A stretch of DNA of 64,000 bases from Streptomyces phaeolivaceus. Its GTDB lineage: Bacteria; Actinomycetota; Actinomycetes; Streptomycetales; Streptomycetaceae. Positions 33,000-61,472 of this stretch are shown in pieces. The stretch is from contig NZ_CP045096.1 in NCBI RefSeq assembly GCF_009184865.1, positions 9,796,001-9,860,000 of the forward strand, given 5' to 3'. Position 1 is the stretch's first letter. Each line of letters begins with the position of its first letter. The notes below the pieces were generated by a model that saw only the letters and a list, made by a program, of their open reading frames with translations, made no database searches and had not been told where the DNA came from. A program made the translations under genes and the position numbers.

Positions 33000-34937
33000 T
33001 TGCGCGATCCGGATCATGCCCGGGGGCTCGCCGAGGTGGAAGCGGTGGTCAGCAGGGCGTTGGTCCAGGTACGCGTCCGCACGTCTCCGCAACTGCCCGA
33101 CGGGCGCAGGGGCTTCGTCGATCGCGACAAGCAGATGCGGCAGCTCACGCGTGAGGCGTCCCGCAAGTTCGACGGACGTGCTCGAAGGGCGCATCTGTAC
33201 GGGCCTGAGGGGATGGGTGGCACACCCCTCGCTCTGCGATGGGGTTGGCGCGAGCTGCAGCGGTATCCGGACGGGCAGTTGTACGTGGACCTGGCCCGGG
33301 TGCCGGACCCCGCCATGGCTCTCCGACAAGCCCTGCGCAGCCTCGGACTGGACGCGGAAGACATCCCGCCGGGTCTGGAGGAGCGGATGGATCTCTTCCG
33401 TCGGCTTGTCGCGGACCGGCGGCTGCTCATCGTTCTCGACCACGTCCAGACCGCCGCGCAGGTGACGCCTCTGCTCACCTCGGCGCCAGAAGTCTTCACC
33501 ATCATCGTCGCCCACCGCCGTCTTCCCCAGGCGGACGCCGAACCGATCGAGGTGGTGCCACTGCCCGAGAACCACGCCGTCGAGTTGCTCACCGAAGTCG
33601 CGGGCAAGCGGATCGTTCAGGAAGCCCGCGCCCGCGCCATACTGCCGCAGGTGCTCGCCCAATGCGGCGGGTCCCCGTACGCGTTGAGGACATTCGCGTC
33701 GCTGCTCGAAGCGCGACCGAGAGAGGAAGAGACCCCCACCATGCCCGGGAGCGACCCCGCCTACGCCGCCGCACAGGAGCAGTACCGTACGCTCGGGCCG
33801 ACGGCCGCCCGGCTGTACCGGCTTTCGGCACTGTGGCCGTGGCCGGCGCTCAGCCCGGCCGTGGCAGGGGCCATGGCCGAGGTCGAGGAGGCCGAGGCGG
33901 CGGGTCTGTTCACCGAGTTCGCAGAGAAGGGGCTGGTCGAGGAGACCGGCACCGGCCGCTACCGCTTCCGTCCCGCAGTACGCCGGCACGCGGAGCAGGC
34001 CGCCGCACGGGAGGACGGCATTCCCGCCTGCTCCAGGGCAGTGGCGCGCGCGGTGGAGTTGCTGCTGCCGTTCGCGGTGCAGGCCGACCGCGCCGCCCTG
34101 CCGGAACGCTGGCACGTGGGCCCTCTGTTCGCTGTGCTGCCTCCTGGCCCCTACGCGTCGAAGGGCGAGGCGATCGCCGCCCTCGGCGCCGAGCTGGGCA
34201 ATCTCGTTCAGGCCGTGTTCGCCGCTGAGGAGTACCGTCTCGGCGACACCGCGTGTCAGCTGTGCGAGGCCTTGTGGGCCCTGCAGCTCAAGGACGGACG
34301 CCACGAAGAGATCCTCCCGGCGCTTCGGGTGGGGACGAAGGTCGCTGACGACATCTGTCCCGGCACCCGGATGGCGGGACGTATGCACACCCTGCAGGCG
34401 ATGGCCCTGATCGAGTCGCGGCAGTTCGCGGAGGCCAAGGACCAGGCGGAGAAGGCTGCGGCGGCCGAGCGGCAGGCGGGGCACCTGCGCGGTCTGGCCA
34501 CTGCCATCGAGACGTCGGGCCTTGTACGGCTGGGTCAGTGGAACTTCCAGGATGCCCACGACCTGTTCGTCGAGGCGGACGGAATCTGGCAGCGTATCGG
34601 TCCCGAAGACGACGGCTACAGTGACAAGCTCCGTGCCCGTGCCCTTCTGAAACGTCACCGGGGGCGCGCGCTGAACGGTCTCCATCTCCTGGAAGAGGCC
34701 GAGGAGTTGCTGGTGGAGGCTCTCGGGTTCTTCCGCGAGAAGGAGCCCTACAACACCGCCCGTACGCTCACCGATCTGGCGGACACGTACAGGCGTGCCG
34801 GGCGGCAGTCGGAGGCGCTGCCGCTGATCGACGAGGCGATCGACGCGCTCGCGGGCGAGAACGCCGACTACCACGTCAACCACCTTCGGGCCCTGCGTGA
34901 TCGCTGTGTGTCAGCGGCCCGGGGCCTGCCTGAGTGA
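33000..34937 (+). CDS. STAND/NB-ARC-like protein 1 with TPR-like C-terminus and degenerate P-loop
   Basis: A 645-residue reading frame from a TTG at 33000 (AAGGAG too close for a good RBS). Residues ~30-300 resemble an NB-ARC core: FVDRDKQMRQL, P-loop position LYGPEGMGGTPLALRWG (the Walker A Lys is Gly), Walker-B-like LLIVLDHVQTAAQV, and IIVAHRRLP in place of the usual TSR motif. A winged-helix-like region (YRLSALWPWPALSPAV) and helical TPR-like repeats from ~400 (MALIESRQFAEAKDQAEKAA, LTDLADTYRRAGRQSEALPL) follow. The last 62 bp overlap, tail-to-tail, the phase-variable GT-B gene. Paralogous to 57229-59754. Confidence 0.75.
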   Translation: MRDPDHARGLAEVEAVVSRALVQVRVRTSPQLPDGRRGFVDRDKQMRQLTREASRKFDGRARRAHLYGPEGMGGTPLALRWGWRELQRYPDGQLYVDLARVPDPAMALRQALRSLGLDAEDIPPGLEERMDLFRRLVADRRLLIVLDHVQTAAQVTPLLTSAPEVFTIIVAHRRLPQADAEPIEVVPLPENHAVELLTEVAGKRIVQEARARAILPQVLAQCGGSPYALRTFASLLEARPREEETPTMPGSDPAYAAAQEQYRTLGPTAARLYRLSALWPWPALSPAVAGAMAEVEEAEAAGLFTEFAEKGLVEETGTGRYRFRPAVRRHAEQAAAREDGIPACSRAVARAVELLLPFAVQADRAALPERWHVGPLFAVLPPGPYASKGEAIAALGAELGNLVQAVFAAEEYRLGDTACQLCEALWALQLKDGRHEEILPALRVGTKVADDICPGTRMAGRMHTLQAMALIESRQFAEAKDQAEKAAAAERQAGHLRGLATAIETSGLVRLGQWNFQDAHDLFVEADGIWQRIGPEDDGYSDKLRARALLKRHRGRALNGLHLLEEAEELLVEALGFFREKEPYNTARTLTDLADTYRRAGRQSEALPLIDEAIDALAGENADYHVNHLRALRDRCVSAARGLPE

Positions 34938-59754: not shown

Positions 59755-61472
59755 GCCGGGTTCGGCTCCGGCGCCGATCGTCACCTGAACGCACAAGGCA
59801 CCGGGGCTGCCCGCAGTGGACATCACATGGTCGTGGATCACCGAGGCCGCGATGGCGGCCGATGTCCACGAGGGGCGCTTGCCACGCCAGCGGGCACGCA
59901 GACGCACGCCGTCCTTGATGAGCAGCGCCGTGCAGCCGTCCTCTGGCTCTTCGACGGTGAGCAGGGCGCAGCCGGGGTAGCGCGCGGCCACGTCCTCCCG
60001 GTTCACAGCCTCGGCCAAGTGGCGCGGCCGGCCGAGCGGCAGAAGCAGTACGTCCGCGGAACGGGGCCACAGGGCGTCGGGATCATCGATATCGGCCACC
60101 AAATGCGTTCCCGCCAGATGCCGTTCCATGGTCCGGCGCTGAAGGGGCGCGGGATAGCGCCGTACTGTGACACTGCCCCCGCCTGCGGCGACGGATACGT
60201 ACGCCGGCCGCTGGACGGGGGAGGAGTGCCCTACCGGCACGGTGGTGGGAACCGGCACCAATCGCGATCTGGCGGGTGTCGCAGGCTCTGGAAGCTGGAG
60301 CAGGTCGTAGAAGAGGCGCCGCAGCAGCACGGCGGATTCTCCCGGCCGGGACGTCACGGTCGCACGCAACTGGTCCAGTTCGGCACTGTCTCGCTGCGCC
60401 TTGGCCGCCTCCTCGATCTGCGACAGGAAGGGCCGGTGAGCAGACAACCGGGGGAGGGTCTTACCAAGACGAGCCATGGGCGACTCGGGGGCTATTTTCG
60501 ATTCCGCGAAAGTGCCCAGGACTGTGGGGATTCCCAGTGCGATTCCGTACATCGTCAAGGAGCCGTGGTCGCCAAGGATTCCATCCGCTGCCAGAAGCGC
60601 CGCTTTCCAGGTCTCCGTATCCGGGACCGGGAGAAGGAGCCCATGCTCGGTAAGCGGCGCCAGCCATGTCTGCAATTGCCATGCGCCGTGGCCGTACCAG
60701 GCATTGCAATGCACTGCCGCCAGAACGCGATATTCGTCGGCCGGCAGCTCCGCCAGGCTTCGACGAAGCACATCCATATCACTCTCATCCGATGCCAGGA
60801 TCGACCCGCGTCCCCAGGTCGACGAGACAACGATGATCTTTTGGTCCGGACGAACACCCAGGGCTCGCCGATACTTCTCTCTGAACGGAGCACTTGCCTT
60901 CAGCTGATCGAAGCAGGGGTCTCCTGCCACCACGCTCACGGGAACAGCAGCCGGGCAGCTCACCGCGAGCCGCTCACGTTGCTCATCATGAGAGAGGACG
61001 ATGGCCGACGGAACAACTCGCCCCTTATGCGTCAACCATTCCGACGACAAGCCAAAAGCTTCCCGCTTCCCGCTTCCCGCTTCCCGCTTCCCGCTTCCCG
61101 CACCAATATTTTACTGTATCCTGCGCCGTGGGGTGCGCCTATCAATGGGGTTTGCAAATTATGGAGATCTCCGCCTCGACTTGTGGCAATTGCCAAGTCA
61201 AATTTGTGTGAGATTGCCTCCTCCCATGGTATGTGAAGCATTCCCCGGGAGGTGAAGAATTCAAAGGTTCCCTCGTCCAGGGTCGACGACTCGGTACAGG
61301 TGAAGACAGTCTGGAGACGTCGGTCGCCCTCGAACACGGTCAACAGGTCGAGCAGCCGTGTCGCAGAGGTGATGTTGTGGACCACGCCGAGAACGGTCCG
61401 CTCCGCCGCCACACTCACCCAGCGCTCACTGTTCTCCGCCAGCGGCAATGGCAACTTCCCCACATCGCGCAC
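59731..61472 (-). pseudogene. GT-B-like protein 2, currently out of frame at a heptanucleotide repeat (OFF)
   Basis: From the GTG at 61470-61472 the N-half ([42 protein letters not shown]) runs into AGSGKRE repeats and stops at ~61032 (146 codons). The C-half, [61 protein letters not shown], reads from ~61057 to 59731 in another frame. The span is 1742 nt (not divisible by 3). One more 7-nt unit gives 583 codons, and two fewer give 576. A TTG at 61050 could start the C-half alone. Classed here as pseudogene because of the frame, but it is best seen as a switched-off phase-variable gene. Confidence 0.82.
61058..61101. repeat. Heptanucleotide tandem repeat inside GT-B gene 2 (6 full copies plus 2 nt)
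   Basis: GCTTCCC x6 (61058-61099) followed by GC. Coding-strand unit GGGAAGC. It is at about codon 124, directly after HGAGYSK, the same place as the different repeat in gene 1 (about codon 127). Confidence 0.96.

Follow-up and report, generated by a model that had tools for sequence, protein, structure and literature searches.

Why should two related genes of one genome carry different seven-nucleotide repeats at the same point of their coding sequence? We addressed this question for a stretch of 64,000 nucleotides (nt) from Streptomyces phaeolivaceus (assembly GCF_009184865.1, contig NZ_CP045096.1, positions 9,796,001 to 9,860,000 of the forward strand; hereafter the window), in which an earlier note had singled out two paralogous genes for GT-B-fold proteins, here gene 1 and gene 2, as candidate phase-variable loci. 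Very probably, this GT-B family is a contingency locus, whose reading frame is switched at random by a hypermutable tract with a unit that is not a multiple of three nucleotides (non-3n), and comparison of the sequences argues strongly for switching.

Two paralogues with heptanucleotide tracts at one codon position

Gene 1 (34876..36741, minus strand) is an open frame of 621 amino acids (aa), recognised as a GT-B-fold protein from a structure model and fold matches. Tandem Repeats Finder places its tract at 36230..36361 (minus strand), with 18.9 copies of CCGGTCT on the plus strand, reading AGACCGG in the gene; the gene 2 tract (61058..61101, minus strand) holds 6.3 copies of GCTTCCC, or CGGGAAG in the gene, and both, at 132 nt and 44 nt, match their unit at 100%. 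Each lies, as the earlier note had reported, between an HGxGYxK motif and the sequence FGLSSEWL, which in gene 1 end the N part (36373..36741, minus strand, closing with HGVGYNK) and begin the C part (34876..36222, minus strand), both located by tblastn of each part against homologues. The longest period-7 run of the real window measures 132 nt, compared with at most 18 nt in 30 mononucleotide shuffles.

The linker from HGxGYxK to FGLSSEWL is 150 nt in gene 1 (mod 3 = 0), which is in frame (ON), and 53 nt in gene 2 (mod 3 = 2), which is out of frame (OFF). Gene 2 had been listed as a single gene at 59731-61472; a paralogue with a tract does lie there, but it is frame-shifted at the tract and occupies two frames, namely an N-terminal open reading frame (ORF) of 146 aa that runs into a wrong-frame stop past the tract (61032..61472, minus strand) and a C part, found as an ORF and by tblastn, that is open in another frame (59731..61056, minus strand). 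The paralogues share about 43% identity in the N part and 38% in the C part. A genome search found four family members in S. phaeolivaceus, the other two being an ON gene with 16.7 copies of GAAGCGG (G000:C2:5936829) and a member without a tract (G000:C2:8790203).

The linker is a repeat hot spot across actinobacteria

We took the linker DNA from homologues in Streptomyces, then in the order and then in the class, and counted arrays of at least three copies as tracts. After exclusion of four of the 132 type-A loci for runs of N or an insertion, 128 were scorable, and 112 of these, from several actinobacterial families, carry a non-3n tract at the site, so that the search proposed in the earlier note was strongly positive. 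One of them, L191 with 23 copies, is closest to the type-C query and was assigned to type A by hand; without it the count is 111 of 127. Unit lengths are 7 nt in 99 tracts, 8 nt in 6, 10 nt in 5 and 5 nt in 2, and the units fall into 34 classes up to rotation. Beyond the order, non-3n tracts occur in 14 of 15 type-A loci and leave seven of these out of frame; their units include ACAGGAA, GAAACCG and ACCCAGGA.

Six loci whose N part the search did not find (L031, L090, L097, L176, L186 and L192) were left uncounted, two duplicate gene fetches were dropped, and species names are those supplied by the data source. Within the genus, the count of 161 genomes out of 295 (E <= 0.001) is only an upper bound, because weak matches may hit the repeat peptide alone, as at an array near 521 kb in S. 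phaeolivaceus. The linker of L027 is 1029 nt long, with an insertion that by eye reads like a transposase gene, and the N-part and C-part matches of L192 lie about 2.5 kb apart.

Gene 1, with its 7-mer, differs in unit from a homologue of 87% DNA identity that has an 8-mer. A quick tree of 143 proteins requires at least 15 changes for tract presence, 23 for period, 53 for unit class and 25 for ON/OFF state among repeat-bearing members. Judged from these comparisons, the position of the tract is inherited, and its unit is rebuilt with a frame-breaking length retained. The argument that the shared position is hard to explain by descent alone does not stand as first put: the position is simply homologous; what needs selection is the turnover of units at a non-3n length.

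Out-of-frame alleles are common and constrained

Frame states were counted in a genus set comprising all C-part matches from about 370 bits up, fetched independently of frame, plus gene-2 relatives and others. Its scorable alleles with a repeat number 69, of which 42 keep the frame, 13 are shifted by +1 and 14 by +2, whereas the repeat-free members, 13 close and 12 distant, are all in frame (27/69 vs 0/25 out of frame; Fisher p = 5.6e-5). By frame, all 112 type-A tracts divide into 72, 21 and 19, a count tilted towards intact genes by the top matches of the order-wide search.

When translation follows the N frame, an OFF allele meets its stop between 2 and 271 codons inside the C part, and in 26 of the 27 OFF alleles the C part has an uninterrupted frame of its own up to its end. 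These alleles are under purifying selection: the ratio of nonsynonymous to synonymous substitution rates (dN/dS) is 0.15-0.30 in seven OFF-OFF pairs and 0.14-0.31 in six ON-OFF pairs, alongside 0.28 and 0.23 in ON-ON pairs with a tract, 0.22 in a tract-free pair and 0.47 in a pair with a decayed tract, for 17 chosen pairs that share members and are not independent.

Copy number and frame differ between close strains

The most telling evidence that a change in copy number alters the frame comes from two S. anthocyanicus strains, whose sequences argue for it strongly. Their sequences are identical for 369 nt before the linker and for 1679 nt after it, and over the 9.6 kb compared the two main aligned segments contain 43 mismatches. 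One strain has 17.6 copies, a linker of 137 nt and an OFF allele with a 328-aa translation, and the other, read from the same first start, has 9.6 copies, a linker of 81 nt and an ON allele of 678 aa; the difference of 56 nt equals eight units. Copy number is therefore not constant across strains, whereas constancy was the outcome that the earlier note had set against its own proposal, and this difference, together with the tracts of the homologues, supports the loci as candidates for phase variation.

Similarly, three strains of the S. coelicoflavus group, with near flanks 93-96% identical, carry 7.7 copies (OFF), 9.6 copies (ON) and an interrupted tract of 7.9 copies (OFF). Many species pairs of at least 86% identity differ by whole units, for example by 7 nt (L055/L061), 42 nt (L002/L041) or 70 nt (L040/L041), and L096 and L098 differ by one 10-mer. 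Among database proteins, which are biased to intact frames and of which 112 of 121 could be cut, S. anulatus P0061 and P0078 (flanks 99.7% identical) are 7 aa, or three units, apart, and S. celluloflavus P0016 and P0043 (98.9%) are 14 aa, or six units, apart.

A probable glycan- or polyol-phosphate-modifying enzyme

The structure model of gene 1 (predicted local distance difference test score, pLDDT, 83) has its GT-B core at residues 24-429, and residues 125-168, mostly encoded by the tract, are predicted to be disordered. Its best fold matches, tied by Z, are UDP-N-acetylglucosamine (UDP-GlcNAc) 2-epimerases and TagF/TarL, from which the family is set apart by an identity of about 12-13%, by an extra C-terminal domain and by its location outside a wall-polymer cluster. 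Invariant in 51 sequences are H117-G-x-G-Y-x-K, H293-x-N and G338-D339-x-G, motifs that we take to resemble the TagF active site; H117 falls near TagF H444 solely by the numbering offset of the aligned ranges. The profile of the CDP-glycerol glycerophosphotransferase family, PF04464, gave matches in 30 of 51 relatives at E <= 1 (best 0.0015), and we do not claim membership of the TagF family for the gene 1 enzyme. On the strength of the modelled fold, it is a probable glycan- or polyol-phosphate-modifying enzyme that may act like a transferase of nucleotide-activated sugars or polyol phosphates. The teichoic-like role raised in the earlier note has this resemblance of fold and motifs as its sole basis, and the single conserved neighbour is not a wall-polymer gene but a STAND gene.

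A STAND gene is the conserved convergent partner

We compared the neighbourhoods of 62 loci and of two stretches from the window, 64 in all, and just one neighbour was widely shared: an opposite-strand gene just downstream, found in 57 stretches and opposite in 65 of 66 genes; the next neighbour cluster, at nine loci, is antisense on the GT-B gene itself. The partner of gene 1 is a convergent STAND-type (NB-ARC/TPR) ORF (33000..34937, plus strand) that shares 62 nt at its 3' end with gene 1; it exceeds the cut-off of PF00931, at 27.6 bits, and that of PF13424, at 35.3 bits. That of gene 2, a convergent STAND-like (TPR, AfsR-like) ORF (57229..59754, plus strand) overlapping it by 24 nt at its 3' end, scores 34.1 bits with PF13424 and 147 bits, below cut-off, with an AfsR model, and the Pfam profile search found no NB-ARC match in it. 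Six further partners have NB-ARC in three cases and TPR in all six.

At E 1e-6, the partner adjoins 90 of 98 rows of group c1 (three lie at contig edges and five are without it), 6/6 far c1 rows, 15/15 rows of group c2, 19/19 type-B and 7/7 type-C rows; outside the order, it adjoins 15 of 18 rows (E 1e-4). Among type-A loci with enough DNA (E 1e-3; four loci too short were left out), it accompanies 109/109 with a tract vs 11/15 without (p = 1.5e-4), and Embleya L208 lacks tract and partner alike. The Walker A lysine is absent from both window partners and present in 42 of the 78 partners with residues at that column; across 136 aligned loci, its loss (to T, S, A or G) is mostly in type-A partners, and it is mostly kept in types B and C. 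Five proteins compared with PADLOC models for anti-phage defence matched only a TPR model, at E 0.022. The GT-B enzyme probably acts together with this convergent partner.

Related loci with an upstream tract or none

Type B is a sister subfamily. All 20 type-B loci have a tract-free linker of 24 nt, and 17 of them carry a tract ahead of the gene, a heptamer in 16 cases and, outside Streptomyces, an octamer in one; two further loci with a 24-nt linker, L150 and L201, also have an upstream heptamer. A TTGC-N-(G)ATAA-like block precedes the tract by 7-15 nt in 14 of the 14 with enough DNA, and is descriptive because the pattern was fitted to the same sequences. The tract belongs to the leader in L066, L076 and L084, because the reading frame of the gene is closed before it reaches back to the tract; in L080 and L081 that frame continues through the upstream tract. 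The eight type-C loci all lack a tract.

Proposed switch and competing explanations

We propose that a tract just after a motif matched by position to the TagF catalytic-histidine loop gains and loses units, most likely by slipped-strand mispairing, which would shift the C-terminal half into or out of the reading frame. An in-frame tract, as in gene 1, would be translated as a disordered loop within a complete enzyme; out of frame, as in gene 2, an early stop or a wrong-frame run-on would leave no enzyme, and because the unit is not a multiple of three, two of the three states would cut the protein after the putative active-site loop. The enzyme would add a sugar or a polyol phosphate to a glycan, either of the surface or of a metabolite, and the benefit would be bet-hedging, for example against phages. 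At type-B loci, by analogy with the promoter repeats of hmw1A, a similar tract ahead of the gene would tune expression.

Several observations weigh against this proposal. The polymorphism lies between strains, from which switching within a clone would have to follow; some close pairs differ by non-whole units, with interrupted tracts or other linker indels, others show no whole-unit difference (for example L042, with an interrupted tract, and L016/L030), and many protein pairs above 90% identity show no difference, while some are apart by other amounts. Frames are not random, because the ON share (42/69) exceeds one third. Tracts are missing from 15 of the 128 type-A loci, and L089, the sole hexamer-only locus of this type, has a three-copy hexamer alongside 2.3 heptamer copies. 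Long heptamer arrays also exist elsewhere, for instance near 521 kb. With PF04464, gene 1 reaches 12.6 bits and the gene 2 C part 10 bits, below the cut-off of 22.1 bits. Finally, the S. anthocyanicus partner is fragmentary and the tract varies there all the same, which also speaks against a link between tract and partner.

Among other explanations, a length rheostat fares best, although we consider it unlikely: copy number would tune an in-frame enzyme through its loop length, or type-B expression, more than switch anything off. Next to the putative active-site loop, in-frame linkers do vary in length between 39 nt (L058) and 285 nt (L131), and more 7-bp promoter repeats lower hmw1A expression according to the excerpt of PMC8262952; yet the coding version needs no frame-breaking unit, and 27 of 69 alleles are out of frame. 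Such a rheostat can coexist with the frame switch.

That the repeats grew neutrally, heptamers being frequent in GC-rich genomes and tolerated in a disordered loop, is improbable. The encoded loop is indeed predicted to be disordered, the NCBI model NF041631 for spurious translations of such repeats gives a weak match, and heptamer arrays occur at L039:4246, at L090:5811 and at G000:C2:521332-521490, the last a long GTCGGCG array (L009, L010) that is apparently intergenic and unrelated to the family; it adjoins a gene that by eye looks GNAT-like. Outside the linkers, 1.04 Mb of loci and window held tandem runs of 12 hexamers, 11 heptamers, three nonamers and one decamer, the heptamers comprising four in focal linkers missed by pairing, five just upstream of type-B members and two unrelated. 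However, a tolerant loop should favour 3n units, as do 30 of the 40 runs in 400 kb sampled evenly from the S. phaeolivaceus genome, whereas 112 of 113 arrays at the site are non-3n; the four heptamers of that sample reach only 3.1-4.1 copies, and tract-free members are all in frame.

Still less probable is a bypass of the frame, in which ribosomal or transcriptional slippage, or independent translation of the C part, would yield product in every frame. Long tandem tracts can slip, and RefSeq annotates an internal start for OFF alleles, but no common slippery motif was recognised among the 34 unit classes, and a break some 123 residues into the protein would interrupt the N-terminal Rossmann domain. 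That OFF alleles come from assembly errors or are decaying pseudogenes is very improbable: long tracts are hard for short reads and some linkers contain runs of N, but 16 of the 27 OFF linkers measure at most 90 nt, and the open C parts and low OFF-OFF dN/dS are at odds with decay.

Known systems and wider meaning

The nearest working analogue of the proposed coding switch is NeuO, the phase-variable K1 capsule O-acetyltransferase of Escherichia coli, which the excerpt of PMC13001214 describes as OFF in 42 of 64 genomes and links to phage survival. From that excerpt, NeuO resembles the GT-B family in having a coding heptanucleotide tract that is ON only at a frame-fitting copy number, and in modifying a glycan; it differs in fold family, in its restriction to one species group, in being prophage-borne, and in its tract, which is near the 5' end and has one fixed unit. 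For type B, the analogue is hmw1A/hmw2A of Haemophilus influenzae, which in the excerpt of PMC8262952 likewise has 7-bp tandem repeats in the promoter region, although the gene is unrelated, encodes an adhesin and has non-coding repeats.

The earlier note knew of no contingency locus in Streptomyces, which holds for the GT-B family but not for the genus: the excerpt of PMC4365076 describes phase variation of the S. coelicolor phage growth limitation system Pgl, through the G tract of pglX, at frequencies of 1e-2 to 1e-4. As presented there, Pgl shares with the family a coding repeat behind Streptomyces phase variation, and differs in its single-base G tract, its methyltransferase gene and its lack of a GT-B/STAND pair. 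In the literature searched (titles and abstract openings of open-licence papers), we found neither a description of this family nor a phase-variable enzyme paired with a STAND protein.

Repeat-driven contingency loci have mostly been described in small-genome pathogens, according to the excerpt of PMC11475388; here, one codon position keeps its tract across several large-genome, mostly soil-dwelling actinobacterial families. The family offers a natural test of which features of a contingency locus are kept by selection; it pairs a putatively phase-variable enzyme with a STAND gene and points to bet-hedging within Streptomyces colonies. We tentatively raise a broader idea, which is at present doubtful, of a class-wide actinobacterial conflict module apart from Pgl and BREX. 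It would combine a STAND protein with a randomly switched GT-B enzyme that marks or edits a surface or diffusible glycan sensed by that protein, the switch being rebuilt from many units in the coding loop or an upstream leader. With a random DNA switch, every colony would therefore always mix ON and OFF cells, combinatorially where there are several copies (ON, OFF and ON here).

Other features of the window

Two further perfect repeats lie in ORFs of the window: a hexamer (3n) array of 10.5 copies of CGCTGC at 27096-27158, inside the ORF 26123-27583 (minus strand), and a 48-nt tandem duplication at 54564-54658, within the ORF 54223-54924 (minus strand). The ORF 37538-38605, the start of which presumably resembles TsaD, shows an apparent frame change, as if truncated or frameshifted.

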